From Pedobacter riviphilus (GTDB lineage Bacteria; Bacteroidota; Bacteroidia; Sphingobacteriales; Sphingobacteriaceae), in NCBI RefSeq assembly GCF_014692875.1, contig NZ_CP061171.1, positions 2,604,001 through 2,668,000 of the forward strand: a DNA stretch of 64,000 bases, given 5' to 3'. The notes beneath the pieces are model-generated. The model did no database searches. It saw only the letters and a program-made list of their open reading frames with translations, and had not been told where the DNA came from. This document shows positions 23,733-62,215 of the stretch, piece by piece (within the stretch, counting starts at the first letter, position 1; every line of letters begins with the position of its first letter). Made by a program: the position numbers and the translations under genes.

Positions 23733-24400
23733 TTAACAGATTAGACTAATAAATGTCAAATGGGCTACATCAAGTTTAATAATGCGTATTCTGGGGTCTA
23801 CGGTATAGATGGAATCTGACAAATATTTTTCAATATGAAAAGACAACTGTCTGATGAACTTATCATCAACAGATTCAATTTCTGTTTCCAGTGGTTTAAA
23901 CGTTACCTGCTTTTGGTAGTTTTTTTTTGAAAGTGCCTGCTGCTGCAGTAAGTTCTTTATTTTCGATAAAAGAATCTCAAAGTTAAAAGGTTTGGCATGT
24001 AATCATTGGCACCGGTTTCAAGGCCCATCAATTGTTCATTTTCACTAGTTAATGCAGTAAGTAATATCACAGGTAAATGAGCCGTACGCTTATCCGCTTT
24101 AATTTTCCGGCAAAGATCAATACCGTTCATTTCGGGCATATTCACATCACTAACAATCAAATCAGGGTGTATAGAAAGTGTTTTTTGCCAGCCTTCTTTA
24201 CCATTTACTTTCACTTTACCACCCTGTGGTGTAAATTTAAAAGCATTCGAAAGGAGATTAAACAGTATCCTTTCAATTTTATCATGGTCAAAAAAGGTAA
24301 CCAGGCTCTTTCTATCGGTTTGAAAACTAAAACTGATTTTCTCTCTGTCGGCTATATCGCTAAAGGAAAGTGACAGCTCCTGAATGAAAGAAATGATATC
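23733..24400 (-). pseudogene. Hybrid two-component (HTCS) regulator fragments
   Basis: In transcription order there is a piece of the histidine kinase ATPase domain (DHDKIERILFNLLSNAFKF, then TPQGGKV) joined directly to the middle of a receiver domain (DLIVSDVNMPEMNG with the phospho-acceptor Asp, HLPVILLTALTSENEQLMG, TGANDYMPK). The G boxes of the kinase and the start of the receiver are missing. One base is lost at 23991-23993; in the restored frame the linker to the AraC domain follows (KFIRQLSFHIEKYLSDS) and then ends abruptly without the helix-turn-helix. The sensor half is also absent. It would have been the activator of PUL1. Confidence 0.75.
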
Positions 24401-24640
24401 TCCTGTTTTAGGGTAGGTTTTTGCGCTGTATTTTTCCTCAATGCTCCAATCGAATGACAGAGCTATAATGCATCACCCGGTATCATTAAATCCTCTACTT
24501 TTGGCTGAGGCTCTATAGCCAATTAAAAAAATTTCCAATTATAATCAATAACTGTTTCCTTTCGTTGTGATACTTATTTTGAGCAAATACGACGCTACAA
24601 CTCGACATAAGTAAAATACCACCATTAAACTTCCCGATGG
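24400..24640 (-). pseudogene. GH2 (beta-galactosidase-like) N-terminal fragment
   Basis: Leftward from about 24640 the reading gives a signal-like segment (ILLMSSCSVVFAQNKYHNERK), one lost base within an A run near 24556, then VIDYNWKFFLIGYRASAKS and GFNDTG, an in-frame TGA where Trp is expected, and ALSFDWSIEEKYSAKTYP. The order of W-K-F, F-N-D and D-W-S-I-E is that of the sugar-binding start of secreted GH2 enzymes. It fuses near 24400 with the kinase fragment. Only about 80 residues survive of an enzyme that would be about 800 or more. Confidence 0.6.
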
Positions 24641-24774
24641 TGATATTGAACTTACACGAATGGTGTTTTGACCCGTAAAAATTATATATAAATGTGATAC
24701 TAATTTCTTTTGACGGCTTAAAAGCTAATCTGGATAAATTAGGCTCCCTGATATTATCGGCAAATAAACTATAA
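24641..24774. other. Short non-coding stretch after GH43
   Basis: AT-rich, no gene and no hairpin with a T-tract that would terminate the GH43 transcript. Confidence 0.4.
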
Positions 24775-42535: not shown

Positions 42536-43459
42536 TCAGTTTTTGGAAACCTTTATAACCTTATTGGCAACCTCAAGCAGATAACTTTTAAAATCATCTG
42601 AAACAGATGCGGGTTTAAATCCTATTTTTTTCGGGGAATCTTTAAAAAGTATCCCGTACCAAATCAAACCGCCTAAATATTTCCCCGCATCATTCGCATG
42701 GTTTGGATCAAAGGCCAATTCTTGTTTGTTCCAAAAATAGCCTACATTGATAGAATGAGTTTGATCAGGTAAATTGGATGCAACAGGATGTTCAAAATCG
42801 AAAGCCGTATCCTTTTTATAGCCATATTTTTTATTGGTCGCCACTTCTTCAAACGCATCGCCAACAGGTAAAAGCCTGGCATTAAACTGTTTTGCTAGTT
42901 TGTGGTATGCTTCACGAGATTTTTGCCACATTTCCAACTGGTTTTTAGCCAATTGCTCTGGCCCAACTTTCCCAAATTTCTTTGCATCAGCACGGTAAGC
43001 CCAAGTTTGGTGAATCACGATTTCTGCATTTGGTTGAAGCTTTTTAATATAGTCTACAAGTTTTTTCGCGTATGGATTGTAGCTTGATGAATCGCTGGAA
43101 AGGTATGAATATTGCTGAATGGTCACTACATCCCAAGTACCTTGCGACAATAACATTTTCAACGATTTGCCTCCATATGGCTTTCCTTTAACATCGGTTG
43201 AATCCTTTTCAAATTTTTCTACATAACCCCAATGTTGCTCCAAAGAATGACCGCCAAGTTCTGCCCTGCCAATAACTAAATTTTTACCCGTTTCTTTGGC
43301 CATTTGAGGTAGAAAAGTGGTCGCATTTTGCGAGAAACTGTTTCCAATTACAAATAAGTGTAATGTATTGTTATTGGTTTGGCTGAAAGCATTAAGATTA
43401 AAAACAAGCGAAAAAATGAATAATCTGCTGCCTTTGTACTTTAAAAAGAATCGTATCAT
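42536..43459 (-). CDS. DUF4886 SGNH-type hydrolase, exported (PUL2)
   Basis: 307 residues, hydrophobic signal at about 11-26 (SRLFIFSLVFNLNAFSQ). The SGNH-like start FVIGNSFSQNA carries the probable nucleophile S41; further marks are GGHSLEQHWG, DVVTIQQYSYLSSDS and a late DPNHANDAGKYLGGL with the Asp/His pair. Proteins of this group are found in polysaccharide loci and are presumed esterases. It is the last gene of PUL2, 111 bases after the symporter, so it may remove acetyl or methyl groups from the substrate. Confidence 0.8.
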   Translation of the reverse strand: MIRFFLKYKGSRLFIFSLVFNLNAFSQTNNNTLHLFVIGNSFSQNATTFLPQMAKETGKNLVIGRAELGGHSLEQHWGYVEKFEKDSTDVKGKPYGGKSLKMLLSQGTWDVVTIQQYSYLSSDSSSYNPYAKKLVDYIKKLQPNAEIVIHQTWAYRADAKKFGKVGPEQLAKNQLEMWQKSREAYHKLAKQFNARLLPVGDAFEEVATNKKYGYKKDTAFDFEHPVASNLPDQTHSINVGYFWNKQELAFDPNHANDAGKYLGGLIWYGILFKDSPKKIGFKPASVSDDFKSYLLEVANKVIKVSKN

Positions 43460-43570
43460 ATTTATATATTTTTGTTTTTACCTCGCCTTTGGATGGGTTT
43501 TCCTGTATTTATAGCGTTCTGCTCCTGATCGTAAAAAAGCACCCACCCAAAAACTTCTGTACTGTTTACA

Positions 43571-45249
43571 TTAAACAACCAACTTTTTACTGGCTACCCG
43601 CCATATTAACCCTGCCGAAATCAGGATTAAACCGCCAACTGCCATTACGGTTATTGAAAAATCCTTTGCGATATACCCAAGTATTCCGATGCCTATCCCC
43701 ACAATGCCCATTGAAAGTGCAATAACACCTATCCCGAATTTATTTTGCTTTGCAGCCTCTATATGTAGGGCCGGATCTACAACCCGGACCGCGGTAACTC
43801 TTTTTTCCTGCTCCATTTCTTCTACTTTAATAGAAATACGCCCCTTGGCAGTATAATATATTTCAAAAAACAAAAGAACCGCTATCGGAATGCCCATCCC
43901 CATGCACGTTTCCATGGTACGGTCGAGCTTTAAACCCCATATACTGGGCATAATCACCTTAAAGAACAGGTTGATCAGCAATGATGTTACTGTGGCGGTA
44001 ACTACTGAAAATCCGCTTTGACGTTTAGAAAAAAGTGTCCAGATGATCGGTGCAAACAATGCTCCACCTGCAATAGAGGCAGTACTTAAAACCACTTCAA
44101 CAATTCCCCCGGCGCTTGGAATCCAAATGGCAACAACAATTGTTAGAACACCAAAACCAGGGTAAAGAATCGGGCCATCCAGATCACTTCTTTTTCTGAC
44201 GCTTTTGGTCTTAGCAGGTTTTTATAAATATCCTGCGCAAAGACAGTCGAGGCCATATTGATCGTTGTATTGGCTTTACTGGATGTGGCAGAAACCATTC
44301 CGGCCAGCACAAGCCCTATCAAACCTGCCGGCATTACTTTTTGGATCAACATCATGTATGCATCTTCACTTTCCAGTCCCTGAAGATTTGGATTGATCAC
44401 CCGGTAGATCATTGGCGGGATCATCCAGATAAAAGGACTTACAAAATACAAGATGGTAAATATACCTGCTACCTTTTTTGAGTTTTTTTGGTTAGACACA
44501 CTGGTATAACGTTGCACATATGACCAGTTTCCGCCGATATAAAACGTCTGATAAACAATAAAAGCCAGCATAAACCCAAAGGTATAGTCCTGGTTAAAGG
44601 GCTCAAAAAAATGGGGCGGCGCTTTTGCCACAAGGTTGGCTGGTCCACCGATCTGGGAAAAAGCTATGGGGATCACAATCAGTACCGCAGCTGTAAGTAT
44701 TACAAACTGAACTACATCAGTCACTAAAACTGCCCATAATCCGCCAGCAGCGGTATATACCACAATGATCAACCCGATCACAATAATGCAGGTTTCTAGG
44801 GAGTATGGGGTGGCTACATGCACCATTTTACCAACCGGATACAATACTGCAGCAGTGGTGAACAGGCTCAGCAGCAAGGTCATATAGGTATAAAACTGTT
44901 TTTCGGCCGCACCGAAACGTTTGCCGATGTATTCAGCTGCAGTTGCAACGCCTGTTTTTTTCCATCTTCCGGCAATAAAAAAGGTGACAATTAAGCCACT
45001 GATGGCCATTGTTAACTGTATTGCATTGGCAACCAGCCCATGTTTATAAGCGATAGATCCCCAAACCACAAAGGTTCCGGCCGAAAAATAGCTGATAAAC
45101 AAGGATAAGCCATTGATCCACCAGGGTGTTTCTCCTCCTGCTTCGAAAAAAGCCTGCCCGCTTTTACTACCCACACGAGTAAATGTAAGTCCGATACCGA
45201 ATATAAGTAAGGCAAAAACCGCCATTACCACAAAATCTAATTTTCCCAT
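43571..45249 (-). CDS. Sodium:solute symporter (SSS family, PUL2), one-base frameshift
   Basis: 45249-44143 (368 residues) and 44095-43571 (174) join when one base is added to the A4 run at 44153-44156; the result is 559 residues, normal for the family. The missing junction reads TLVFGVLTIVVAIWIPSAGG. At least 13 membrane helices are seen, with SSS hallmarks SLFISYFSAGTFVVWG, AAEYIGKRFGA and GLVLAGMVSATSSKANTTI. The family imports sugars, sialic acids, uronates or amino acids with Na+. In PUL2 it should bring the final monomer or dimer into the cytosol, where the oxidoreductase encoded just upstream could act on it. Confidence 0.88.
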
Positions 45250-45271
45250 TTAATTTATCTGCTATTTAGTA

Positions 45272-47551
45272 TTATTGATAACAACGCACGGAGAACAAAG
45301 CCGCAGGTACCTCGTCTGAAGGATGTTCCAAATATATCGTTAGGCTCCTGGTATTTAAAGGCTCAGTTAGCTCAATGATGTTCCTGGTTTGATAATTACC
45401 GGTTTTAGTAAAAACAACGTTCTCTTTATCATCTTTAATTACATAATTCCTTACGCAAAACGGCATCACATTTTCCGGATGCCCCATCAGGACAGACTCC
45501 ATTGGATGATCAAAATCAGTATCAAATAACAACTCGATCCGTTTAATGCTCTTGATTTCTTTCCAGCTGATGGTTAGTGCCGGATTCTTATCTTTCCAGT
45601 CGGCCACCCATGCATTTGGTGCAGAAACTGGCCTGTCTATGCCATTGCTAACATTTGCAGCACCAAAAGCATCAATACCAGATGTGTAGTTAAATGCAAT
45701 ATTGTGCCCTTCGGGCCTGCGCTTGGGGCACCAGAATTCAAACTCATCTACCCCAATATCCTCTGGCGGACTTTGTTTTCCATAATTGGATACGTCTTTA
45801 TTAATAGCATTGAACACGGATAATAGTCCCGTAACCCGCTTCGCTGAGAACTGCAGTTTTACATCAGGATTCTTCATAAAGGTAAGAAACGCATAACTTT
45901 CCTCAGGCATTACCGCATCAAAGCTGATCTGCAGGCAATTGCGCCCGACATTTATTGGCAGTGAAACTTTATCTATGGTCAAATCTGGCGTATGGTTGCT
46001 CTTTTTACTGCTGATCCTAAGTTCTACTTCCAACTCCGTTGCCACATCTCCTTCTGCATGTACAACAAAGGTACCGATTGCCCCTGCTTTTAAGGGGATC
46101 ATCTGGGCAACAGAAAACTCGAGTGGTTTAAACAACCTAGTTTCGGGAAGGCCGGTCAGCAACAGTTCTGAGGATGCGGTAACCTGCGCACTGCGTACAA
46201 GGTCGATCGCATCATGAAGTACAAGATCTGGAATGTGATGCCCACTGCGCAGCAGCTCAGTCTGCAGTTCTGGTATAAATCCTTTATGATAGACCTCCGC
46301 TGGCAACAGATTTTTGTCTTTACAGATCTTCGCTGCCATGGCAACCGCCTGTGCCGCATGGGCAGCAGTAGCCATAACCCTGGTAGAGCCAAAGGCAACA
46401 TGCGTTGCACTGATAATCCTTCCTGCCAGAAAAAGATTTTTGATGTTTCGGCTATATAAAGAGCGATAGGGAATCTGATAGATGCCCTTGCTATGCCATT
46501 GATTGCAACCAGGTTTCTCGCTGAACACCCCATCTGCAGGATGCAGATCTATGCTCCAGCCACCAAATGCGACAGCGTCATCATGCAATTGCTGATTAAC
46601 GATATCCTGTTGTTTGATGATGTATTCGCCTTCGAAACGGCGGCTCTCTCTTTTACCCGGTATGGTACCTACCCATTCTAGCGCAAGGTTTTCGGCTTCA
46701 GGAAAATTGCCCGAGTTTTTTACATAGTTCCATGCACTGTAGGCAACTTTCCAGAGTTCCCATTTTATTTTTTCGGTATCATGTACCGTATCCAATCTTC
46801 CTCCATACTCCAGCCACCAAAGTTTACATCCGTACTCCCTGGCATTAAAATTTTTAAACCTGGGGATCTTTGTAATATCATCCAGTGCATAAGAAGGGGC
46901 TACAAACTTTACAGGCTTGCCGGTATCTTTACTGTAAAAATACAGGCTATGGCCAAGCAGTTCCCCATATTCTTTTGTAGGCGCAAACTGTTCTCCAAAT
47001 TCTTCTTTGGCCTCTGCTCCCATCCTAAACGCCGCACCAGCCAAAAAGGCCACAATGCCATCTCCTGATGCATCGCAAAAAAGCGGTGCGTGTATGATAT
47101 ATTCGGTAGAATTCTGACTGCAAAAGGCTTTTACGGCGCTCAGTTGATCTGCGGCTGATTTCTCTACATCATACACCCCGGTATTAAGCAATAAGGTAAT
47201 ATTAGGTTCTGAAACAACCTTATCAAGCAAAACCGTATCAAAAATCAACGGATTGCCTTCGGGGTTCCTGTACATATTTTCAACCATCAGCTCATCCACC
47301 ACACCACCTTCTCTTGCCCAACGGTTATTATTTCCCATATGTGATGTGGCGCCCAGCATCCATAACCTTACCTCACTGCTCGCATTTCCGCCAAGCACGG
47401 GCCTGTCCTGCACCAGTACAATCTTTAACCCTTGCCTTGCAGCGGTAATTGCGGCACAGGTTCCTGATACCCCGCCCCCTATAATGGCAAGATCTGCCGC
47501 GAGTTCGTCAGATCGCAGCTGCCTCTTTTCGCCTCCTTGATTTGTGATCAT
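45272..47551 (-). CDS. FAD-dependent oxidoreductase (FAD_oxidored family, PUL2)
   Basis: 759 residues without signal peptide. An FAD-binding Rossmann motif is at residues 20-50 (LAIIGGGVSGTCAAITAARQ), followed by PVLGGNASSEVRLWMLGA, which is typical of the FAD_oxidored (PF12831-like) group, and a second cofactor segment NLFLAGRIISATHVAFGS. From about residue 500 a long C-terminal region of beta-sandwich type follows (SLTIYLEHPSDEVPAAL at the end), which might bind carbohydrate. Members occur in many Bacteroidota polysaccharide loci with unknown substrate. Cytosolic location and the symporter 22 bases downstream suggest oxidation of the imported sugar. Confidence 0.85.
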   Translation of the reverse strand: MITNQGGEKRQLRSDELAADLAIIGGGVSGTCAAITAARQGLKIVLVQDRPVLGGNASSEVRLWMLGATSHMGNNNRWAREGGVVDELMVENMYRNPEGNPLIFDTVLLDKVVSEPNITLLLNTGVYDVEKSAADQLSAVKAFCSQNSTEYIIHAPLFCDASGDGIVAFLAGAAFRMGAEAKEEFGEQFAPTKEYGELLGHSLYFYSKDTGKPVKFVAPSYALDDITKIPRFKNFNAREYGCKLWWLEYGGRLDTVHDTEKIKWELWKVAYSAWNYVKNSGNFPEAENLALEWVGTIPGKRESRRFEGEYIIKQQDIVNQQLHDDAVAFGGWSIDLHPADGVFSEKPGCNQWHSKGIYQIPYRSLYSRNIKNLFLAGRIISATHVAFGSTRVMATAAHAAQAVAMAAKICKDKNLLPAEVYHKGFIPELQTELLRSGHHIPDLVLHDAIDLVRSAQVTASSELLLTGLPETRLFKPLEFSVAQMIPLKAGAIGTFVVHAEGDVATELEVELRISSKKSNHTPDLTIDKVSLPINVGRNCLQISFDAVMPEESYAFLTFMKNPDVKLQFSAKRVTGLLSVFNAINKDVSNYGKQSPPEDIGVDEFEFWCPKRRPEGHNIAFNYTSGIDAFGAANVSNGIDRPVSAPNAWVADWKDKNPALTISWKEIKSIKRIELLFDTDFDHPMESVLMGHPENVMPFCVRNYVIKDDKENVVFTKTGNYQTRNIIELTEPLNTRSLTIYLEHPSDEVPAALFSVRCYQ

Positions 47552-47769
47552 AAAAATATTCTGTATTATTTCTTTCTGTTATACTTTTCCAACCGTCTGT
47601 TCTGAATGGCGACAAGGGAAATCCTTTTGCATTAAAAACATTGGCACCATTACTTTCTACCGGACTGCCGTGCCTTACTGCAACCGATTTTACTTTCCAT
47701 AGCTACATAAACAGCGCGCAGCCGAAAAGCAGAAGAATTTAATATGCTTTTTTAATTTAAAAATCTGTT

Positions 47770-49179
47770 TCATTTCAGTAATGTCCCTCTTAGTAAAATC
47801 CGACCTAAATAGATCACTGTCTGATCATATTTTTCAGGATGTTGAACAATATCCTCCCTCTTGTCCTCAGGCAAGATCATGAGTTTATCGGCTTTCTGGC
47901 CAGACAGGGTTACCTTTACCAAATGGTTCCCTTGAGGCACTTTAATTACATCAAACTGCCCGCGGTAACGGTTATAACAATAGTTGTTGAACCTATTCAA
48001 TACATCAGCAGCAGTTGTGTCTTTTGCCTGGTAATAAATAAAATTCCCTTCCTTTTCTTTGCTTAATTTCACAGGCTTTCCATCTATAATCCACTCCAGT
48101 TGCCCAACCTCAGGTCCGCCAATATCAAATACACCCAGCATATCACCCTTAAAACGGAAACTAAATGTGGCCCCGGGCTTATTAGCAGAAAGTACATTAG
48201 AAAACCAGGGACTGAATTTTTTAAGGTTTGGATCAGTATCAGTTGGCAACACCCTCCAGCCTTGATCAGGAACTGGCAAAATTGATGGATCTACCATTGT
48301 TGCCTCCTCCCATGCGGCACTAATTAATGGCTTTGGCAGCTCCTTCTTTTTTAAGGGCTTTGCTGTCTCAATTTTTTTGAAAGCACGGGCTATGGCCGCA
48401 GCGTAGAAATTTCCCCCTACCGTAGTCGGGTGGATTCCATCCTCAGAAAACAAAATTCTCATCTGCTCAGCTGGGTTTCCTTTCCAGATTAGCTTTCCTG
48501 CTGCTTCCAGGCTTGCTGGCTCCATTCCTAAATTCACAGAAGGTAGGTCGTAGTGTGCTGCAACCTGCTCCAATCCTTTAATATTTGGTGGCAACTCATT
48601 TTTTTGATAAAAGGCAGTTTGTCCAGTTAAAATGGTATACAGCAAACAAATAGCTGTATTGGGGTTCTTTTTGATTGTTTGACGGATCATCCCTTCCATC
48701 CCGGCGGCATAAGCGCCGTTAACGGCAAATTCTATAAAAATAAGATCGGGCTGGTGGCTAAGTACCTGTTCATTGATCCTAAATGCACCCAGCTCCGTTC
48801 CCGTGCCAGATACACCTGCATTGATCCATTGAAAGCTGACCTGAGGATAGGTTTGCTCCAGGTACTTGGCCGTTTGAAGGCGATAACCAAAATTTGCTTG
48901 TGTAATGCTCCCTCCAATAAAAGCAACTACCACCTTTTTACCCGCATTTACTTTTTCAAAGAAGCCCGGAAGACCTGCCCTAACATTGCATTCCAGCTCA
49001 TTGTTAAAGTCACCCGCTTCAATTACAGGGATATTAGGGACAGAAACATCAAAATAAAGAGGAGAAGCCCCTGCCTGTGAAGCTGCAATCTTATCACTAT
49101 CTGGCCTGGTTTGAGAAAATGCAGTAGCAGATATCAATAAATAAGCAAGCAATGCAGTTTTCACACCTTTTTTATTCAT
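47770..49179 (-). CDS. Exported SGNH/GDSL esterase (PUL2)
   Basis: The start at 49179 is preferred because the signal peptide begins there (MNKKGVKTALLAYLLISATA) and it overlaps the stop of the preceding enzyme gene by 8 bases, a sign of coupled translation; 469 residues result. SGNH blocks are clear: GGSITQ with nucleophile S91, INAGVSGTG, FAVNGA and DGIHPTTVGG with the Asp and His. A C-terminal beta domain (about 300-469) may be a carbohydrate-binding or jelly-roll part. The likely task is removal of acetyl groups from the polysaccharide in the periplasm. Confidence 0.88.
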   Translation of the reverse strand: MNKKGVKTALLAYLLISATAFSQTRPDSDKIAASQAGASPLYFDVSVPNIPVIEAGDFNNELECNVRAGLPGFFEKVNAGKKVVVAFIGGSITQANFGYRLQTAKYLEQTYPQVSFQWINAGVSGTGTELGAFRINEQVLSHQPDLIFIEFAVNGAYAAGMEGMIRQTIKKNPNTAICLLYTILTGQTAFYQKNELPPNIKGLEQVAAHYDLPSVNLGMEPASLEAAGKLIWKGNPAEQMRILFSEDGIHPTTVGGNFYAAAIARAFKKIETAKPLKKKELPKPLISAAWEEATMVDPSILPVPDQGWRVLPTDTDPNLKKFSPWFSNVLSANKPGATFSFRFKGDMLGVFDIGGPEVGQLEWIIDGKPVKLSKEKEGNFIYYQAKDTTAADVLNRFNNYCYNRYRGQFDVIKVPQGNHLVKVTLSGQKADKLMILPEDKREDIVQHPEKYDQTVIYLGRILLRGTLLK

Positions 49180-52100
49180 TACCATTGAGTACAATCTTTT
49201 TTGATTTTGTTTTCCCATCATTACTTTTAAAAATGAGCTCCAGTTTTGCGTCCTCGCCCATCCCCAGTTTATTAAAACTCCATTCGTAAGGGTACTGCTT
49301 TATTTCCTTCATTTGATTGTTACAATTAACGGTTACGGAATATCCATTTAACGGAGCGGTTTCTGCAAATCCATAACAGGTATCCCAACCAAAGGGAGAA
49401 CGGATACGGAACAAGAATACACGCCCCAGGGAGCCCCCAAATCAATCACCTTCATTCCATCTTTTACCGGCTGATATTTCTTTGCTACCCGGTTCGCCTT
49501 TAATGGAATAGCAATTGCTTTGAATCCTTTTGCAGGGACAACAACATCAATCTTGGCCGCTTTAAAATCCTTGGAAACTGACTGATCGCTTTGCGCATAA
49601 ACCAGGGCTTTCCCATCCTTTAGCGCAGCCGTAGCATCAGTCCATTGTACAGCTACTTTTTCCTCAGACTCAGCTTCTGAGGAAAGCAGGATCCAGAAAT
49701 TCTTATCTGAAACTGCAGTAACATAATTGATGCCTGCATTCTGAATATTTACCAAGCCTTTATGCATCCATAGTGTGGCCTGCTGATCTCCAAAGACCGT
49801 TCCTTTTCCGCCTCCATATACCCGATTGTTAAACCAGACAAATCCCTCCTGTTTGCTATAAGGAAACGCTACATTTCCATTTGAACGCTGTATGCTTTCT
49901 GAGATCAGGTAATCGAGGCTAAAAGCGATATGTGGTGGGATATGATGATAATAAATGGAACTCACATCCGGCCCTTTATAAGGAAAATCAACCGACATGG
50001 GTATATCTGTAAAACCCGTAGCGTAATATCCAGGATAGTTTGCATAACGACCGATTACGGCATTGCGGGCATAGGTTTCGTAGATAGGGTTGTTTTCATA
50101 TTGGAACAAGCGCAGCAAATGGGGTGCCCAGCTACTCATAAATACCGGACGGACTGTCTGATCTTTTACACGGGTAAAATAGGTACTAGGCTGCTCCAGC
50201 CCCAGGCCTACCGGCGATACCAGCCATTCGGGTACTTTCTTTTCCTGTACATCACCATTTTTCCGTGGAAAACCTAAACGATAAGGCTCGTTGCCTTTCC
50301 ACCAGATGTGTGTAACGCCATCATAATGATTATTCTTGTGAATGGTTTGCAGGCTATCTTCCACTTTCGGATAGCTGCGTATTCCCGCAATGGTAAAATG
50401 TGCACCATATTCTGCGGCTTTCAGATACTTTTTATCTTTTGTTGTTTCATAGAGATCCAGCAAATCCCACCAGGGTGCATAAAAACTGGCATTGTAAAAA
50501 GGTACATGACTCAATACTTTATTGGTATTGTTATATATTTTTTGCTGAATAAAAAGATCTGCATCTTTTTTTGCCTGCTGCAGCCATTTTGCCTGGCCTG
50601 TGAGCTGGTATGCCCAAAGCGCCTGGTTCCATGAATGGAAATCTGTTGAGTAGCCTTTTGCCATCCTAAGGCTATCTCCTGGTAGTGCTATATTTTTCAG
50701 CCAGGGATTCAATCCGCCCAATAAGCGATCCAATCCTACATAATAAGACGTGGTGAACTGAGAAGTAAGCGGGTTGAACTCCAGTGTTTTTCGTGTAGCA
50801 TTATACGCTGTAGGAACAATATCTGTTGCCCATCGGTACCCGCTTCTGGAAAGCGTAAATTCTATTGTTGGCAAAGACCGGCTGATGTAAAACTCTTCAT
50901 CATTCTGCAATACAGAAAGTGCAATATTGGCCAATGGTGTGGCATTTACAACTGTAGGTGCTGTTTTAGGATCGCCTTCAATATCAAAAAAACCCTTTAG
51001 CTTAGTCGACCATCCCGCAGCATTGTCATTTTTCACCAGCTCAATCATGTTGAATACCGCATCGGTAAGCGAAGCTTGTTCTTGTTTCCGGTAGTCCTTT
51101 ACCTCAAACACTTCCTTCGATACATAATCCATGGCCGAATCCCAGTTGCCCGACTTTACACCAATAATAAATCGCCTGTCAATCAACTCCCCTGCACGGT
51201 ATTTAGAATCATTCATTCCCAGAACGGGAGAAAACATAACCGGCTGTATCTGGTTATTGTGGTTCTTTAGTGTAAAACCTGCAGGCGCATAGTCTACAGA
51301 ACCCCAGTCCTTTTTAAATAATTCAGGACTTGTTGCCACATAACTAGAAACAATACCTTGCCCTGTTTTTGAAGAAACAATAGCCAAGGGTTGCTGCATC
51401 ATTGAAGTAATCATCATTTGCGGGCCGTCAGAAAGCCGTTTATACTGAAACATGGGTGCCATCGATACGCTTTCCAGCTCCTGATCGGAAACAGGCTGGA
51501 AGGCTTCGATCCCCATGCTATAATACCCTGGCTGGGCAATCTTGCAGATCAACCGCAGATCAATATGTTGCTGACCTGGGTGTAATGTCCATAAACCGGT
51601 TATTGTAGAACCATTCCTGGTTACATATTGAACTTTTATGGTTTGTTTGTCTACCGCTTCTGCAGTTATGGGAATGGCCTCGCTGAGGTTCCCTGCCTCA
51701 AAAGGATTGAGATCAGCTCCAGGCTGGTAAACTGCATATCTATGACTCTTAAAAACAAAATATGCATTTGGTTTTTGGCTGTCCCAGGTTGGATAATATT
51801 TATTAAACTGGATGGCGGTAGCATTAGTACTGATTAAGAAAACCCGGTGGTCTTCCATGTTTGCAGTGCTTACCTGTTGCCAAGCCCCATCTTTTTTTAT
51901 TTCTGTTTTACAAGCGATAGCCTTATGGTCAGCTCCCGTCCTTACAAACTGCACACGTACAGCCTCGTTTTCAATTCCTGCAATTACCTTATCCGTCTTG
52001 CTCAGTTGAAGTGCGGGGCTCGTGTTTTTCTTTTCCGCTGTAAGTGTTTCCTGCATAACAGGAAGCTTTTTCCAGGATAAAAGGGTTTTCTTATCCATAT

Positions 52101-52581
52101 CATTTGGATTGATTGTGCTATCCTGCGTAAAAAGAATAGCATCGCAGCGGCCAAAATTAAAATTATGGAGGCGCAACAGCACATCTGCCTCCATTAGGTC
52201 AGCACTTCCGAGACGCTCCCAGGCATATCCTGGTTTTCCATGTCCTCCTGCTTTTTTTAACCTGGCATTTCCAACCGAAAGCTGGAATAACCGGGTACGG
52301 GGACGTATATCAAAATCGGGGGTCCTTATCCAAATGGCATAACGACCTGCTTTTCCGATATTCATCACGGTTAATGCATCAGATGTACTATCCTGTTCTC
52401 CTTCTAAAAACCTTAAAATGCTGCCACTGATGCCATCTTTATTGACTTCATTAAACCATTTGCCTTTAAACTGAAAATCAGTCCCCAGCAGTAGGCTTTT
52501 TTCTTGCTGGGCAATCACAGTTCCCGTTGTTAAAAACAAGAATGCTGTTAATAATAAACATAGCCTGGTTTTCTGGTACAT
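49172..52581 (-). CDS. Large exported (alpha/alpha)-toroid-like enzyme, PUL2, one-base frameshift
   Basis: 1077 residues are read from 52581, and an 80-residue frame with nominal TTG at 49414 follows; adding one A at 49416-49417 unites them into 1136 residues. Signal peptide MYQKTRLCLLLTAFLFLTTG. The first 170 residues look like a beta-sandwich (GKAGRYAIWIRTPDF). A larger beta domain is followed by helical repeats (about 640-930: FHSWNQALWAYQLTGQAKWL, PWWDLLDLYETTKDKKYL) as in six-hairpin glycosidases and polysaccharide lyases, then a C-terminal beta part. I cannot assign a CAZy family. It resembles the next upstream protein in overall plan. Confidence 0.75.
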
Positions 52582-52589
52582 ATCTTAAT

Positions 52590-55178: not shown

Positions 55179-56074
55179 TGGGTAATAGTTAAATCTATTT
55201 CTTTTACAACTGTAAGTGATCGTTCTAAATTGGCGTTGGTTGCCACAAATGACACTTTATATACACCAGCTTTAGTATAAACCCTGGTATAATCTTTTAG
55301 ATTCTGGGAAATATTCTTAATAGGTTCCCCTACATCAGGTAAAATACTATTGGGGTTGAACTGCTTGCTTACTACCCAGTCATCATCCAAATCCGTGCTA
55401 TTCCTTACCGTAAGCAACTGTGCTGAGGTAATACTCCAATTGGTTGCAGGGCCACTAAAATTAAAAGCAGTCCAGCCCGCAGTAGCCATAGTGGCCAGTA
55501 CAGTTTCTTCTCCCTGCTGGTTGGTGCTCTTAAGATCGAAAGAACGGATTACCCAACGGTTTTGCTGTGCTTCTGGTTTTATAACTGTGGTTTTATAAAC
55601 CAAAGCCAAGGCCATGTTTTTATTACGCTCTGCAAAAGTATTCAGACTGATATTTCCCGAGGGGGTCTGATCCAGACCAGCAGATAAAACAGCTTTATCT
55701 GTAATATCTTCCCAGTTAGCAGCCCTTACATTTGTAGCATCATATATTCCATTGAAATTGGTAGATACATACAGTTTTATCACCGATTGATCGATGGGCA
55801 TTACCCCGAACTGGGCATAAGTTTTAAAATTTAGGGAAACCGTATTTCCTTCCACAACCGTTCTTTTCCGGTACTCATATTTGCGCCCAGCTTCCCCCGA
55901 CCAAAATACAATGTTCTCGGGTTTACCATTAATCATAAACCTAACGGGCTCTCCAACCTTATAACTGTTTTTTTCCAACTCAACAGAAAAATCATCCTGA
56001 GGAGCCAGCTCATAGGTCTTCTGGCAGGAAGCCAGGGAAAATAATATAACAGATGCAATTAATAGCTTATTCAT
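55175..56074 (-). CDS. DUF5017-type surface lipoprotein (PUL2)
   Basis: Start set at 56074, where a lipoprotein signal begins (MNKLLIASVILFSLASC, Cys17); 299 residues. An N-terminal Ig-like or PKD-like domain (FSVELEKNSYKVGEPVRFMI, NIVFWSGEAGRKYEYR) is followed by a beta-sandwich rich in Asn and aromatic residues. The pattern is that of DUF5017, found behind SusD genes and thought to act like SusE/SusF as additional glycan binder at the cell surface. It lies 17 bases after the SusD stop. Confidence 0.8.
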   Translation of the reverse strand: MNKLLIASVILFSLASCQKTYELAPQDDFSVELEKNSYKVGEPVRFMINGKPENIVFWSGEAGRKYEYRKRTVVEGNTVSLNFKTYAQFGVMPIDQSVIKLYVSTNFNGIYDATNVRAANWEDITDKAVLSAGLDQTPSGNISLNTFAERNKNMALALVYKTTVIKPEAQQNRWVIRSFDLKSTNQQGEETVLATMATAGWTAFNFSGPATNWSITSAQLLTVRNSTDLDDDWVVSKQFNPNSILPDVGEPIKNISQNLKDYTRVYTKAGVYKVSFVATNANLERSLTVVKEIDLTITQ

Positions 56075-56091
56075 CTTATATAATTTTGTAG

Positions 56092-57663
56092 TTACCATCC
56101 TGTATTTTGTTTGATATTAGGGTTAACGGCCAGTTCACTGTTAGGGATCGGGAATAAAACAGCACGATCTGTTACGCGCTGTGCCTGTGCAATAGCTGCG
56201 TCTTTTAAAGCAGTTGGCATATTGGCCTGGTATTCTCTTGCCTGTGTTTGCATAACGGATGGATAAATACCCCATCGTACAAGATCGTGCTTCCGGATGC
56301 CCTCGAAAGCAAGCTCACGTAACCGTTCATTCCTGATCAGATCAAGGAAGTCCTGCTGAGACAGGTTAGCGGCCGCATCGGCCGTTACATCGGGAACAAG
56401 CACATCTTTCCCATAACCCCTTCGCCTTACCATATTTATTGCTTTATATGCATTTAAAGAGGGTCCATTATTGGTATAATTATCAGCTTCTGCAAACATC
56501 AGTAATACATCGGCATACCTTAACAGTGGCCAGTTTGTACCGGTATAGTTTTGATTTCTTGGCAAAAGAAGTTCATACTCACGCCTCCATTTCCCATTAC
56601 TACGATCGTATATCTGATCTGCTGGCCAGTTGGTCCGTACAGCCGTTTGTCCACTTGTCACATACCGGTAAGGAGCAACTGTCCAGTCCCTTCTCTGATC
56701 GCCATTCGCATAAGCATTGTAAAGCTTCGCTGTAGCATGAACATAATCATAGCCATACCCAATTTCAATATTTCCACAGGTAATGCCGTTATAACTGCCA
56801 ATCATGCCACCCTCTTGTATTTCGCCCTGGTTTACGCCTTTAAATTCTACTTCCCACAAACTTTCCCTTGTATCGAAAAGCTCCTGAACATGGTTGATAT
56901 AGATTTGCTTGAAATCGGGATTAAGACTGTGCAATCCTGACAGCATTACTTTTTCTGCATAAGTCCTGGCATCGGCATACTTTGCAACATCATTTAGCGG
57001 GGCGCCTGCCATGGTCAGATATACCCTCGCGAGTATACCTTGTACAGTAGTTTTTGTGATACGGGTATTATAGCCATAATCAGAAACAGATTTCACCAGA
57101 CCTTCTGCCTGTTTCATATCAGTAACAATACGTTCGTAAAGGTCCTTTACCGGAGTAGCAGGCAGAGGCGGTTCTTCAGGTGATTTGCTGGATTGAAGCT
57201 TTAAAGGCACACCTCCAAACTCATCCGTTAACAAAAAATAATAGTAAGCCCTTAAAAATAGCGCCTGCCCTTTTATTTCGTTGCGTTTTTCCGCAGTCAC
57301 CTTAACGGCCTTATCTATGTTTTCGAGTAACATGTTCGCTCGCTCAATACCCGTGTAAAGCGTTTCCCAATGTCTGTTTAATTCCAGGGTCGAAGCATCT
57401 ACAATATTGGCATTCATTCCCGATGTCTGGTTTTTCATAAAAAATTCGTCACTAAAAACCATATAGCAAGACATCCCTTGTGAATAAACCCTATTATCGC
57501 CCAAACGGTCGTATACTCCGGCCAATGCAGATTGCAGTTCACTTTCTGTATTGTAATAATTTACTGGCGATACAAAATCCTGTGGGGTTGTGTCCAGGAT
57601 CTTCGAACATGAGCTCACAACCAGTGCCAGCATCATCGCGATATATAATAAAGTCGTTTTCAT
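56092..57663 (-). CDS. SusD/RagB-family lipoprotein (PUL2)
   Basis: Start placed at 57663, giving MKTTLLYIAMMLALVVSSC (Cys19) and 523 residues. SusD marks: ILDTTPQDFVSPVNYYNTES, the TPR helix ALFLRAYYYFLLTDEFGGVP, YADVLLMFAEADNYTNNG, IRNERLRELAFEGIRKHDL and the closing FPIPNSELAVNPNIKQNTGW. It caps the SusC transporter encoded 18 bases upstream and binds the polymer or oligomer at the surface. Intact. Confidence 0.95.
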   Translation of the reverse strand: MKTTLLYIAMMLALVVSSCSKILDTTPQDFVSPVNYYNTESELQSALAGVYDRLGDNRVYSQGMSCYMVFSDEFFMKNQTSGMNANIVDASTLELNRHWETLYTGIERANMLLENIDKAVKVTAEKRNEIKGQALFLRAYYYFLLTDEFGGVPLKLQSSKSPEEPPLPATPVKDLYERIVTDMKQAEGLVKSVSDYGYNTRITKTTVQGILARVYLTMAGAPLNDVAKYADARTYAEKVMLSGLHSLNPDFKQIYINHVQELFDTRESLWEVEFKGVNQGEIQEGGMIGSYNGITCGNIEIGYGYDYVHATAKLYNAYANGDQRRDWTVAPYRYVTSGQTAVRTNWPADQIYDRSNGKWRREYELLLPRNQNYTGTNWPLLRYADVLLMFAEADNYTNNGPSLNAYKAINMVRRRGYGKDVLVPDVTADAAANLSQQDFLDLIRNERLRELAFEGIRKHDLVRWGIYPSVMQTQAREYQANMPTALKDAAIAQAQRVTDRAVLFPIPNSELAVNPNIKQNTGW

Positions 57664-57681
57664 TTGTAAAAACATTTATCG

Positions 57682-60600
57682 TTAAAAAGTTAGGTTCATA
57701 CCAAAGGTGATGGTGCGCGCCCTTGGATATGGGCTCCAGTCGAAACCCGGTGTGAGCGCAGAATGGCGCACCGAAACTTCAGGGTCCAAACCGGAATAGT
57801 TGGTCCAGGTTATTAGGTTTTGTGCCGAAACATTAAAGCGGGCTGATTGTATTTTAAGCTTTTTCGTTACTGCAGAAGAAAGGTTATAGCCCAACGAGAC
57901 CGTCTTTAACCGAAGGAAGGAGCCATCTTCGATATTCCTGTCGGAGAACACATTAGGACCATAACCACCGGCAATAGGCAAATCGCTGTTCTGATTTTCC
58001 AGAGACCACCTGTTTTCGTAGGTTTTAAACATATTCAGACTTGGTCTGGCTTCTGCGCCTTCAAATACAATCCGGTTCGCATTTAAAATGTCATTTCCGT
58101 AAGACCATTGTAAGAAAATATTGAGGTCAAACGGACCATAATTGAAATTGTTGGAAAAGCCTCCAATGTGTTTCGGATTAGGATTACCAACAATCGTCTG
58201 ATCATTTGCATCTACCACCCCATCTCCGTTAATGTCTTTGTATTTGATAAAACCTGGCTTAATGAGCGAGCGGGCGCTCCCATTATTCGGTACGTCAGGT
58301 TTCAGTTCATAGCTACCGTTAGACAATACATTGAAATCACTTAAAGGATACACCCCATCAAAAACATAGCCGTAAAACAATGCCACAGGGCGTCCTGGCA
58401 AGGCTATATAGGGTAAAGAGTTATTGAAATTGGCGTTCCAGTTCGAAACACGTGTAATTAAACTAGGCTGATCACCATTTAACTCTTCGATCTTGTTGGT
58501 ATTAAAGGCAATGTTAAAATTGGATGTCCAGCTGAATTTCTTTGTACTCAGGTTTATGGTATTTAAGGTAAACTCCAAACCCCTGTTTACCACAACACCA
58601 ATATTTTTAAATGCGGTAAGGTACCCGGTTGAAGTAGGCAAGGAAGCATTCAGCAATAAGTCTGTAGTTCTTTTATAATAATAATCGGTAGTTAAACTGA
58701 TGCGTTGCTTAAAGAAACTTAAGTCTATTCCAAGGTCAAGGTTTCCCGTTCGTTCCCATTTAAGGTTCTCATTTCCCAGCCCAACAGGTACAGTTCCTTT
58801 AATGTATTGTCCGTTAAAGTAATAACCACTTCTGGTATTTCCAGTGTTGGCCCCTACTTCCTGATCCAAAACGCTCAGGTACGCAAAGTCCGATACCCGG
58901 TTGTTTCCGGTAATTCCATAAGAAGCCCTTAGTTTTGCAGAAGAGATGGCCTTAACTGATTTCAGGAAATTTTCTTCCCCAATATTCCAGGCAAAGGCCC
59001 CGGAAGGGAAATAGCCCACTCTGTTATCCCTGGCAAATTTTGAAGATCCATCACTACGGACAGAAGCCGTGAACAGGTAACGGGAGTTAAAGGTATAGTT
59101 CACACGACCCAGGAAAGACACCAGCGTTGAATAACTACCTGAGGTTGTTTTTACCAGTACAGTCCCCTGGTCAAGCCCCCTGACACCCAATGACTCATTT
59201 GGCAATAAAATAGATACGAATCCATCCCCCTCCATACTATTTCTCTGCATTGTAAATCCAACTACTGCATCTAAACGGTGCTTCTTGTTAAATGTCCTGT
59301 TAAATGTGAGCAGATTTTCGTTCAGTAAACTGCGGATATTTTGATTTTCGATGGAACCATTAATGCCATAGCTTTGCCCGTAAACGGTTCTCGGATTTCC
59401 GGCTGCCGTATTAGCATTGTTAAAACGCTCAAAAATCAAACGGGTATCCGTCATCCCGCCACTCAGCTTGAACTTAAAATACTTCAGGAAAGAATACTCC
59501 GCAAAAGCATTGGCAGTAAGTGATTTGTTAAAAGCATACTGATACAAGTTGTTGGAGTTTACTACCGGATTTATCCTTAAATCTGTATTACCCGCCACAT
59601 CGTCGTCAAAAGGCTGATCAAGGAAATTTTCGTCATCCGCATTGCCTGTAACAGGCCTGTATCCCCAGGTACTGTACATCAAATATGAGCTGGCATTTCC
59701 GGCCGAGCTGCTGTTTAGGTTATCACTGGTTAGATTTGCTATCTGACCTTTTTTGATTCCGTATGTATAATTGGTATTAATGCCAATTCTCATATTTTTT
59801 CCTAAACGCTGATCGATCTGAAACCGTCCCTGGTACCGCTTATACCCACCATTAATCACAATTCCATTCTGATCTAAATAAGAGCTGCTTACCGAATATT
59901 TTGTAGCCGCAGTGCCACCCCTCATAGAGAAGCTATGATTTTGCATAAATGCATTCTGTAATACATTATCCTGCCAGTTTATCCCACGTTCATTGCGGTA
60001 AGCATCTAAAGTTTTGCCGTCTTTAAGATACAAAGCGGTAGCGGAAGTCTTATTCAAGTCCAGCTGGTATTTCACAAACTCATAAGGGCTCATCACTTCT
60101 ATCTGCGTTGACGGATATTGATAGCCCAGCCAGTTGTTATAGTTAACTACCGGCGCGCCTACCTTACCTTCCTTGGTCTTGATCATGATCACACCATTGG
60201 CTCCTCTCGCTCCATAAATTGCCGTAGAAGATGCGTCTTTCAATATATCTATTGATTCAATATCATCCGGATTAATGGTATTGTTGTCGGGATTTTCCAA
60301 AGGAAAACCATCAATTACATAAAGTGGTGAGTTTGACTGGGTAATGGAATTCCCTCCGCGAATGGTGATGTTGCTAATACTGCCTGGCTGTCCATCACCA
60401 GAACCAACCTGCACTCCTGCCACCCTTCCTGCCAAGGCATCTTCAAAGGAAACTACCGGTGCCTTTTCCATATCTTTCATCACTACAGAACCGACCGAAC
60501 CAGTCAGGTCCTTTCGTTTTACCTGGCCATAACCAACAATTACCACGTCATCTAAAGCGGTGTTGTTAGGTACCAGTTGAATTTTATAGTGACTTTGACT

Positions 60601-60867
60601 GGTGATAACCACGGTTTTGCTGATATAGCCAACCATGGAAACCATCAATAGTTCACTTTCTTTTGTATTAGAAAGACTAAAGCGGCCCTGATCATCTGTT
60701 ACGCGGGAAACTGTTTTCCCCTGGATGACTACTTTCGCACCCGGCAAGGGTTTCCCGGTTTCTTCTGTAACAGTTCCACTAATGGTTTTTACCGCTTGGG
60801 CCAGACTGGAAAGCGGAATACCCAGAACCAATAGCACTGTTAAGAGTAAGTTTGGTTTCATATTCAT
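57682..60867 (-). CDS. SusC/RagA TonB-linked outer-membrane transporter (PUL2)
   Basis: 1061 residues. Signal peptide ending LSSLAQAV; CarboxypepD_reg-like domain (about 27-110, SGTVTEETGKPLPGAKVVI); TonB-box region DDVVIVGYGQ; plug with AGVQVGSGDGQPGSISNITI, PLYVIDGFPLENPDNN and ILKDASSTAIYGARGANGV; then the large barrel ending ITFGMNLTF. Start may also be Met3. It is the first gene of PUL2; its promoter region contains a -7 like element and TCTGG repeats (61026-61061), suggesting repression by the divergent GntR protein. Confidence 0.95.
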   Translation of the reverse strand: MNMKPNLLLTVLLVLGIPLSSLAQAVKTISGTVTEETGKPLPGAKVVIQGKTVSRVTDDQGRFSLSNTKESELLMVSMVGYISKTVVITSQSHYKIQLVPNNTALDDVVIVGYGQVKRKDLTGSVGSVVMKDMEKAPVVSFEDALAGRVAGVQVGSGDGQPGSISNITIRGGNSITQSNSPLYVIDGFPLENPDNNTINPDDIESIDILKDASSTAIYGARGANGVIMIKTKEGKVGAPVVNYNNWLGYQYPSTQIEVMSPYEFVKYQLDLNKTSATALYLKDGKTLDAYRNERGINWQDNVLQNAFMQNHSFSMRGGTAATKYSVSSSYLDQNGIVINGGYKRYQGRFQIDQRLGKNMRIGINTNYTYGIKKGQIANLTSDNLNSSSAGNASSYLMYSTWGYRPVTGNADDENFLDQPFDDDVAGNTDLRINPVVNSNNLYQYAFNKSLTANAFAEYSFLKYFKFKLSGGMTDTRLIFERFNNANTAAGNPRTVYGQSYGINGSIENQNIRSLLNENLLTFNRTFNKKHRLDAVVGFTMQRNSMEGDGFVSILLPNESLGVRGLDQGTVLVKTTSGSYSTLVSFLGRVNYTFNSRYLFTASVRSDGSSKFARDNRVGYFPSGAFAWNIGEENFLKSVKAISSAKLRASYGITGNNRVSDFAYLSVLDQEVGANTGNTRSGYYFNGQYIKGTVPVGLGNENLKWERTGNLDLGIDLSFFKQRISLTTDYYYKRTTDLLLNASLPTSTGYLTAFKNIGVVVNRGLEFTLNTINLSTKKFSWTSNFNIAFNTNKIEELNGDQPSLITRVSNWNANFNNSLPYIALPGRPVALFYGYVFDGVYPLSDFNVLSNGSYELKPDVPNNGSARSLIKPGFIKYKDINGDGVVDANDQTIVGNPNPKHIGGFSNNFNYGPFDLNIFLQWSYGNDILNANRIVFEGAEARPSLNMFKTYENRWSLENQNSDLPIAGGYGPNVFSDRNIEDGSFLRLKTVSLGYNLSSAVTKKLKIQSARFNVSAQNLITWTNYSGLDPEVSVRHSALTPGFDWSPYPRARTITFGMNLTF

Positions 60868-61198
60868 TGTTTATATTTGGTTATATTGTTACCACAACAT
60901 TTACATATCTGCAGTATATTTTTAAATGACTCGCTAAAGCATTTAAAACCTCATCCAGATCCGGGGAATAGCAATTAGAGCTTAATAACAATAATTACTA
61001 CGTATATAAAAAATGATCAACATTACTAGTCTGGTCTGGACTGGTTAGGTCAACAAATATAATATAATATATTTTATTTCTTTACAAAAAATAAAAAAAG
61101 CTCTTCACACCCAAAATGGGGTGATTATTGAATAATTGTTAGGTGGGCTGGTTTGGTTTGTATGGTGTATTAATTACATTTGCCTAAATAATATACCT
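60868..61198. other. Divergent control region of PUL2
   Basis: 331 bases between SusC and the regulator. It holds the -7 element and repeat cluster listed separately, and a long leader of about 180 bases before the SusC start codon in which I see no riboswitch or strong hairpin. Confidence 0.5.
61026..61061 (-). promoter_or_regulatory. Probable PUL2 promoter and GntR operator
   Basis: Read leftward, TATATTTG (61061-61054) matches the Bacteroidota -7 consensus TAnnTTTG. Immediately downstream, where the transcript would begin, lie three 5-base repeats TCTGG, TCTGG, ACTGG (within 61030-61044 on the plus strand) followed by TTAGG. A repressor bound there would block initiation. No convincing -33 element at the usual spacing was found. 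Confidence 0.55.
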
Positions 61199-62215
61199 AT
61201 GATCTCTGAAAACACACTCCAGAAAGGCAATCAAGGCAAAATGAAATACCAACAGCTTGCCGATCACATTATGTCACTGATTGAAATTGATCAGCTACAT
61301 ATTGGAGATCAGCTGCCTTCTCTCAAGCAGCTGCAGTTACAATTAAAAATGAGTAAGGAAACTTTACTCAAAGGCCTAAATGAACTTGTTGAAAAAGGCA
61401 TCGTTGAATCTGTATACAGGAAAGGATATTATGTACGCAAAAAGGCCATTCACCATTCCTTCCGCGTGTTTTTGCTGCTTGATAAAATGAATATTCTGCG
61501 TGAACAGTTTTATAGGACGCTTTTTAACCAACTGGAAAACCGCGCCGATATAGATATCTACTTTCACCATCATAATTATCAGGTATTCGAAAAATTGATC
61601 AAAGAAAATCTGGGTTCATATACACATTACGTCATTGCAACTTTTTTAAAAGAAAATGTAGCCCCGCTCCTGAACCTGATTCCAGACAAGAAAAGAATAA
61701 TTATTGATTTAAACGAGCAAGGTTTATCAGGCAATTACAGTAGTATATACCAGGATTACGGCTTTGACATTTATAATAGCCTTCATAAATTAAAGGCTGA
61801 GTTAAAAAAATACGATCGGCTGATATTGGTTGCCCATCCCGAAGCTGTTCATGCCAGGCTAGTAATTGAAGGTTTTTTACATTATTGCACTGAAACTGAA
61901 TACCCCTACCTGATACAATCTGAGATTGATGAAAAGACTTTTCAAAAAGGTAATGCTTATGTAACCTTCAGCAGGTACGACACCGATGATGTCATGTTAA
62001 TTAAGCTTGCGCGAAAAAAGAAACTTAAGTTAGGGAAGGATATAGGTCTCATCTCTTACAATGATACACTTGTGAAAGAAGTGCTTGAAGATGGTATTAC
62101 GGTCATCTCAACTGATTTTGAGGCAATGGGTAAAACTGTTGCACAAGCCATCCTGGAAGAAAAAATCGTGATTAAGAGAAACCCGACAAAAGTTATTAAA
62201 AGACATTCGCTCTAA
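61199..62215 (+). CDS. GntR-type regulator with LacI-like sugar sensor domain
   Basis: The start at 61199 (MISENTLQKGNQGKMKYQQL) is preferred to 61136, which would add a hydrophobic, unlikely leader; 338 residues. Winged helix of GntR type at about 14-80: LHIGDQLPSLKQLQLQLKMS, KETLLKGLNELVEKGIVE and the wing SVYRKGYYV. From about 88 a periplasmic-binding-protein-like domain follows, with DRLILVAHPEAVHARLVIEG and DIGLISYNDTLVKEVLEDGI. Such fusions are common in Bacteroidota as sugar-responsive regulators. It faces PUL2 and is probably its regulator; the inducer is likely a monosaccharide or its derivative. Confidence 0.88.
   Translation: MISENTLQKGNQGKMKYQQLADHIMSLIEIDQLHIGDQLPSLKQLQLQLKMSKETLLKGLNELVEKGIVESVYRKGYYVRKKAIHHSFRVFLLLDKMNILREQFYRTLFNQLENRADIDIYFHHHNYQVFEKLIKENLGSYTHYVIATFLKENVAPLLNLIPDKKRIIIDLNEQGLSGNYSSIYQDYGFDIYNSLHKLKAELKKYDRLILVAHPEAVHARLVIEGFLHYCTETEYPYLIQSEIDEKTFQKGNAYVTFSRYDTDDVMLIKLARKKKLKLGKDIGLISYNDTLVKEVLEDGITVISTDFEAMGKTVAQAILEEKIVIKRNPTKVIKRHSL

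Follow-up and report, generated by a model that had tools for sequence, protein, structure and literature searches.

Which enzymes would cut the glycan in a SusC/SusD locus whose presumed depolymerases fall in no assigned family, and what would a flavoenzyme contribute beside them? The question is raised by a gene cluster in a 64,000-nucleotide stretch of Pedobacter riviphilus (contig NZ_CP061171.1, positions 2,604,001 to 2,668,000; hereafter the window). At window positions 42536-60867, the list of open reading frames (ORFs) and Pfam give nine minus-strand genes, a split symporter gene being counted once, and among their products are two large proteins, toroid 1 and toroid 2, and a flavin adenine dinucleotide (FAD) enzyme of the FAD_oxidored family. 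The locus is real and conserved, the FAD enzyme is its frequent partner, and the toroids are unclassified. We tentatively read it, from sequence, as a conserved Bacteroidota polysaccharide utilization locus in which uptake would be followed by de-esterification, cutting and a redox step, and we place this reading somewhat short of an even chance.

Gene content and layout

The cluster and the adjoining regulator are composed of the following genes.

57682..60867, minus strand: SusC/RagA TonB-dependent outer-membrane transporter (TIGR04056, 893 bits, cut-off 368; PF07715, TonB plug)
56092..57675, minus strand: SusD protein (PF07980 and PF14322, above cut-off)
55175..56098, minus strand: DUF5017 protein (PF16409, 213.6 bits)
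52590..55178, minus strand: toroid 2, 862 aa (hhalign to GH127/GH88 profiles; signal peptide by eye)
49348..52581, minus strand: toroid 1, 1077 aa (hhalign to toroid 2, 100%; a frame break near 49425 removes the C-terminus)
47770..49221, minus strand: putative GDSL/SGNH esterase (PF13472, Lipase_GDSL_2, 43.2 bits, cut-off 32.9)
45272..47551, minus strand: FAD_oxidored protein, 759 aa (PF12831, 321.1 bits, cut-off 27)
44143..45249, minus strand: SSS symporter, N-terminal part (TIGR00813, 189.9 bits, cut-off 184; SSF, 140.7 bits, cut-off 22.8)
43571..44095, minus strand: SSS symporter, C-terminal part, read in a different frame (matches the same part of the unbroken gene of locus L019)
42536..43459, minus strand: DUF4886 SGNH-type protein, second putative esterase (PF16227, 137.9 bits, cut-off 26.7; motifs by eye)
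61136..62215, plus strand, divergent: GntR regulator with a LacI-like sugar-binding domain (PF00392, 38.7 bits, cut-off 27; PF13377, Peripla_BP_3, 28.3 bits, cut-off 26.5)

The earlier note on this DNA had described nine co-directional genes with a divergent GntR gene, and the same layout is found here. Its spacing of 4 to 18 bases for several genes holds for two gaps, SusC-SusD (6 bp) and toroid 2-toroid 1 (8 bp). The others lie outside that range: SusD and the DUF5017 gene overlap by 7 bp, the DUF5017 gene and toroid 2 by 4, and the remaining gaps are 126 bp (toroid 1-GDSL, in the broken frame), 218 bp (GDSL-FAD), 22 bp (FAD-SSS) and 111 bp (SSS-DUF4886).

The SusC and SusD homologs are adjacent, as in other SusC/SusD polysaccharide utilization loci, and the DUF5017 protein is, by its position, perhaps a surface glycan-binding protein. 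The symporter belongs to the SSS family, its N-terminal part alone exceeding the TIGR00813 cut-off and the L019 ortholog scoring 206.3 bits. The carbohydrate-active candidates of the window cluster are the esterase-type proteins and the toroids only, with GH3, GH97 and GH2 enzymes appearing in relatives. GntR homologs adjoin the cluster in many relatives too. Elsewhere in the window (18278-26286) there is another SusC/SusD pair, its SusC gene split, with a GH43 gene nearby.

Conservation across Bacteroidota

Conservation of gene order across Bacteroidota had been named as a check, and several genera share the order SusC-SusD-DUF5017-toroid 2-toroid 1-GDSL. The cluster as such is found in many Bacteroidota genera, among them gut and oral ones. 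When named genomes are scanned with toroid 1, 38 loci come up; they belong to Pedobacter, Niabella, Sphingobacterium, Dysgonomonas, Bacteroides, Hoylesella and bins from metagenomes labelled Alistipes, Prevotella, Muribaculaceae and others. Of 395 genomes sampled across the phylum, 4 have toroid 2 (P. riviphilus included), compared with 92 of 200 genomes of the family of genome G229, which the names of toroid 2 records suggest is Chitinophagaceae.

Sixty loci were mapped, L001-L014 and L108 having been excluded beforehand as redundant or short. Four of the sixty (L038, L044, L045 and L049) were dropped for want of an intact toroid 2, and the 56 that have one were counted. In the same run of genes lie SusC and SusD (54 each), FAD_oxidored (43), SSS (40), toroid 1 or 3 (37), DUF5017 (27), GDSL (26), GH2 (19), a flavin-carrier candidate (15), GH3 (14), DUF4886 (13), ApbE (9) and GH97 (7). 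These counts are approximate: the loci were selected through toroid 1 or toroid 2 and lack independence, flanks are short, the FAD_oxidored label also covers secreted paralogs, L043 is badly frame-broken, and a spurious antisense ORF cuts the runs of L096 and L098. The FAD enzyme and the symporter had been proposed as members of the locus, and both indeed belong to the conserved set (43/56 and 40/56).

One Pedobacter-like group (L029, L031, L042 and L052) carries genes for secreted proteins of about 354, 531 and 538 aa downstream of the symporter (about 18000-23600); the three from L029 have no Pfam match.

The toroid proteins

The two toroids had been described as large toroid-like proteins that could not be placed in a family. 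By profile comparison they do appear toroid-like, and no family covers the whole domain. PDB sequence searches with toroids 1 and 2 return chance-level matches only (best E 0.2 and 0.37), no NCBIfam model matches, and no Pfam model spans the whole length. The Pfam toroid matches are weak. Toroid 1 scores 22.8 bits against GH127 (PF07944, cut-off 24.9) in the protein search and 26.0 bits in the genome-frame search, there spanning 94 of 376 positions; toroid 2 scores 16.4 bits, below the same cut-off. Against GH88 (PF07470, cut-off 26.6), toroid 2 reaches 21.2 bits over 74 of 352 positions and 22.9 in the genome search, and one relative (G011) reaches 26.7 bits with neighbours in frame.

A third toroid gene follows the GDSL gene in L016, L018 and L019 (14810-17653 in each). 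In profile comparison, hhalign pairs the three toroids at 100% probability each: 750 columns for 1-2, 867 for 1-3 and 743 for 2-3, the toroid 3 profile holding only 10 sequences. On these alignments, toroids 1 and 2 and the relatives' toroid 3 are one superfamily. In the C-terminal half, E639, Y698, H713 and D723 (toroid 2 numbering) are invariant in all three families and R664 and R685 nearly so (88-100%), a set that would fit a lyase or a hydrolase. Toroid 2 may be divided into an N-terminal region, a GH127/GH88-like toroid core and a small C-terminal region. Toroid 1 has an extra N-terminal domain followed by a core homologous to toroid 2; the gut versions (964-972 aa; L033, L039-L041 and L046) are without that domain.

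Beyond the three families, the nearest relatives appear to be the GH127 and GH88 six-hairpin enzymes. The first profile sets, built from relatives' proteins, included weak members, such as GH127 matches that fell short of the cut-off and a gene shared by both sets; with these, hhalign gives GH127/GH88 probabilities of 97.1%/92.2% for toroid 2, 68.1%/83.1% for toroid 1 and 51.8%/72.7% for toroid 3, whereas the controls (GH3, GH97, GH2 and the FAD enzyme) give 0.1-5.7% against the toroids (0.1-1.6% for toroid 2). The cleaned sets hold 21 GH88-type, 16 GH127-type and 14 heparinase-type sequences. Toroid 2 then matches at 87.9%/67.4%, and the cleaned GH88 and GH127 profiles match each other at 85.2%. 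Against heparinase profiles the toroids score 1.4-10.2% uncleaned and 0.4-1.3% cleaned, a comparison that is blind at such distance: because the GH88 and GH127 profiles miss the heparinases as well (1.6-13.3%; 1.6-2.6% with the cleaned sets), it says nothing on the toroid fold, and a distant toroid lyase would escape it.

The likeness to GH127 and GH88 lies in the toroid core and includes one aspartate, the invariant D571 of toroid 2, which aligns with the first aspartate conserved in the uncleaned GH88-type set; the second falls outside the aligned part. In contrast to those enzymes, the toroids have an additional N-terminal region, several hundred residues long; the alignment extends over no more than about 80-180 columns and leaves the catalytic part of GH127 uncovered. 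Taken as profile evidence, this gives moderate support to the toroids forming a branch of their own within the GH127/GH88-like toroid group.

Many public records of toroid 2 (P0001-P0120) carry the label "glycerophosphoryl diester phosphodiesterase". No such Pfam domain is found, and the label looks like a propagated misannotation.

Probable coupling of toroid 2 to the symporter

Eight of the 120 homologs listed (P0060, P0061, P0064, P0067, P0080, P0085, P0088 and P0109; 1420-1447 aa) are fusions of an SSS symporter followed by toroid 2, the toroid 2 part being without a signal peptide. In a simple hydropathy scan, the three fusions inspected each show an additional hydrophobic stretch where symporter and toroid join, which none of four stand-alone SSS proteins has. 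On the simplest reading, this apparent extra membrane segment would be a signal-anchor that holds toroid 2 at the importer on the periplasmic side. Toroid 2 is therefore probably a periplasmic enzyme working next to the importer.

The FAD enzyme and the redox module of relatives

The FAD_oxidored protein scores above the PF12831 cut-off and has the FAD-binding glycine motif, whose glycines are invariant in 22 aligned sequences. It is probably cytosolic, with no signal peptide seen by eye. NCBIfam, PDB and family scoring give no characterised near relative, and the PDB matches span the flavin-binding segment only. At E 1e-60, 10 of the 395 phylum genomes match, six of which, P. riviphilus included, carry an ortholog with 57% identity or more; four of these six are the toroid 2 genomes. 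The P. riviphilus genome holds a second full-length FAD_oxidored match (G000:C1:578247-579707, 363 bits).

In many loci of the G229 family, the interval between SusD and toroid 2 encodes a secreted FAD_oxidored paralog, a carrier candidate and sometimes ApbE.

Loci with the secreted FAD enzyme plus the putative flavinylated carrier in that interval: L059, L091-L093, L095-L098, L100-L103 and L105-L107

The motif D-x-x-[STA]-G-A-T, which we take to be of the ApbE flavinylation type, is found in 17 of 17 carrier candidates and in two of three more distant relatives, L146 being the exception; the one candidate scanned gave no Pfam domain. The N-terminal domain of the secreted FAD paralogs matches that of toroid 1 in 14 of 15 cases (E 2e-8 to 8e-14). 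Because of this common domain, redox chemistry and glycan cutting seem to share a substrate in the relatives, and redox chemistry on the locus glycan is likely. The Pfam scan of the window's cluster genes, which did not extend to the rest of the genome, finds no ApbE system among them. Related FAD enzymes with a carrier-like gene also occur without toroids in L144, L146 and L148, next to sulfatase-like, CoA-transferase-like or M14 peptidase-like genes (mostly named by eye).

A bolder route can be drawn from the same module. An FAD enzyme would oxidise a sugar unit, the toroids would cut the glycan once it is oxidised or activated, toroid 2 and the symporter would together pass the product inward, and the cytosolic FAD enzyme would restore a normal sugar such as galactose. 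A secreted enzyme with an ApbE-flavinylated electron carrier would serve the Chitinophaga-like version, and the window strain would be reduced to the cytosolic enzyme only. We regard this flavin redox route as improbable, at roughly one chance in eight.

Substrate of the locus

Two SGNH esterases had been proposed, and both proteins keep the catalytic motifs, as read by eye. Residues 87-309 of the GDSL protein match PDB 6hfz (E 1.8e-18), presumably the acetyl-mannan esterase RiCEX of family CE17; the remainder of the protein is unmatched. The GDSL protein is probably a carbohydrate deacetylase, and the two SGNH proteins, one of them resembling 6hfz, hint that the locus glycan may be esterified.

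A hint of galactose comes from Sphingobacterium tabacisoli (L025:21276-23481), where 8 bp separate the symporter gene from the start of GalT (TIGR00209, 466 bits, cut-off 102), and GalK (TIGR00131, 310 bits, cut-off 227) comes next. None of 10 other GalT-GalK pairs in 81 genomes of the window's family has an SSS gene within 1.5 kb on the GalT side, and only about 0.3 kb is covered beyond GalK. The earlier note had held that the sugar is oxidised after import and not phosphorylated. Oxidation in place of phosphorylation is not supported here: GalT and GalK follow the symporter in the same run of L025, so phosphorylation can come afterwards.

The glycosidase partners of relatives give mixed signals. 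The GH97 of L017 is nearest to alpha-galactosidases (E 1.1e-43 and 9.4e-43), with alpha-glucosidases close (8.8e-38 and weaker). The GH3 partner scores best with beta-glucosidases. For one GH2 partner, beta-glucuronidases stand near the top of the PDB matches, below an unnamed GH2 entry, and that of L143 is nearest to plain GH2/beta-galactosidase entries.

It is conceivable, though we consider it unlikely, at about one chance in five, that the locus is an ordinary hydrolytic one for an acetylated, galactose-containing plant glycan, in which the FAD enzyme would act on a minor or unrelated metabolite outside the main route. The 6hfz-like esterase, the GalT and GalK genes of one species, and the alpha-galactosidase and beta-glucosidase affinities of GH97 and GH3 are consistent with such a locus. 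However, different families retain the FAD gene together with toroid 2 and SSS, and the second, secreted FAD enzyme of relatives shares its N-terminal domain with toroid 1 (14/15), both of which speak against this reading.

An acidic polymer had also been considered possible, for which we find only weak hints. Among 27 toroid 2 members, weak Pfam matches (E up to 0.1) point to GH88 (25/27), GH127 (22/27), C5-epimerase (16/27) and pectic acid lyase (7/27), and the beta-glucuronidase signal concerns one GH2 partner and not another. On these matches, and on an MFS transporter beside the FAD gene of L142 that is nearest to the D-galactonate family (215 bits against a cut-off of 395), one could build an acid-sugar route: the toroids would set free a uronic acid or an unsaturated uronate for the symporter to import, and the FAD enzyme would oxidise it further, e.g. 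to an aldarate. Yet GalT and GalK of S. tabacisoli point to galactose, the GH2 partner of L143 is of the plain type, and no uronate pathway gene is found among the cluster genes scanned, a scan short of every neighbour and of the rest of the genome. We judge the acid-sugar route unlikely, to about the same degree as the hydrolytic one.

The esterified, galactose and acid hints do not agree on one polymer. Galactolipid degradation was set aside for lack of evidence.

Proposed route

The genes and their families, the gene order, the kinship of the toroids and the toroid 2-symporter fusion are observed. The following mechanism is plausible in outline, its localisation, de-esterification and order of steps being what we infer. 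An esterified oligosaccharide, perhaps containing galactose, would enter via SusC/SusD, and the two SGNH proteins would strip its esters in the periplasm. There, the toroid enzymes, of a superfamily distantly related to GH127/GH88, would cut the glycan; in relatives the third toroid would assist, as would enzymes of GH3, GH97 or GH2. Toroid 2 would yield the final small product beside the SSS symporter, which would import it. The cytosolic FAD enzyme would then oxidise or reduce the imported product to a sugar for central metabolism, and the GntR protein would sense a sugar.

Several observations weigh against this mechanism. Within the run span covered, 13 of the 56 runs have no FAD_oxidored gene and 16 no SSS gene, and two of the 43 FAD_oxidored runs (L096 and L098) hold a secreted paralog only. 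Of 8000 candidates scored, 7891 fall below 1e-100, so that the FAD family is very large, and the enzyme also occurs without toroids and may serve many sugars. L142 combines the FAD gene and the MFS transporter with SASA esterase, GH16, GH29 and GH43 genes; L143 has it with GntR, SusC, SusD, SSS, GH97, GH2 and sulfatase genes. Because neither locus holds toroid 2, the FAD enzyme seems to accompany sugar import more widely. The GH97, GH3 and GH2 partners vary between loci, and therefore substrates may differ; the galactose hint comes from one species. Cleaning the profile sets lowered the kinship of the toroids with GH127/GH88 (toroid 1 to 34.2%/67.2%, toroid 3 to 27.7%/78.9%), and one unrelated control pair, GH127-GH3, reached 19.8%, the other seven pairs giving at most 1.1%.

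Frame breaks in the window strain

Relative to L019, the symporter gene lacks one base near 44158 and reads as two ORFs. Toroid 1 lacks one base near 49423-49427 relative to L016, L018 and L019, and its 1077 aa compare with 1135-1137 aa in close orthologs. Toroid 3 is missing in this strain, a toroid 3 query matching only toroids 1 and 2 in its genome. The two breaks, at about 44158 and 49425, and the absence of toroid 3 could mean that the locus is a decaying remnant here, with symporter and toroid 1 broken and toroid 3 lost. Against decay, a SusC gene elsewhere in the window (19889-22989) is also split, its larger piece alone spanning TIGR04056 positions 230-981, and so probably is an RND pump gene (11626-14756), found as two ORFs that span positions 1-314 and 326-1020 of one Pfam model. 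Completeness of the genome is 97.7%, compared with 99-100% in 21 of 24 genomes of the genus. Because these genes are likewise split and completeness is lower than in most of the genus, the breaks in the symporter and toroid 1 are probably sequencing errors of an error-prone assembly, and we give decay only a slim chance of about one in ten.

Comparison with known systems and implications

Like other Bacteroidota SusC/SusD loci, this one combines a SusC/SusD pair, an extra lipoprotein candidate, secreted enzymes, esterases, an inner-membrane symporter and a sugar-sensing regulator. It differs in that no canonical endo-acting family of carbohydrate-active enzymes is found in the window, the presumed cutters are unclassified toroids, and the FAD enzyme is conserved. 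The system had been suspected to be undescribed, and text searches of an open-licence paper library gave no description of it.

Redox-assisted glycan breakdown is the possible logic that the locus shares with the NAD-dependent 3-keto-glycoside pathway of Bacteroides. Here flavin would take the place of NAD, and no DUF1080 or Gfo/Idh domain is found among the proteins scanned. The flavin redox route, if true, would be a flavin counterpart of that keto-sugar route.

Extracytosolic electron transfer by flavin and ApbE is a further point of comparison (PMC8238504, PMC11334425). The relatives' loci resemble it in having a secreted FAD enzyme, a motif-bearing carrier and sometimes ApbE; in contrast, their module lies inside SusC/SusD loci, and it is not among the window's cluster genes. 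Term searches of these two papers give no mention of polysaccharide, SusC or sugar, and we found no link of extracytosolic electron transfer to glycan feeding in an open-licence paper library. The flavin-carrier version of the relatives would connect the two.

The locus ties three unclassified toroids of environmental, gut and oral Bacteroidota to a symporter and a conserved flavin enzyme. Should the toroids prove carbohydrate-active, they would establish new families of enzymes, and the fusion of enzyme and importer would hint directly at the way in which cutting in the periplasm is linked with uptake.

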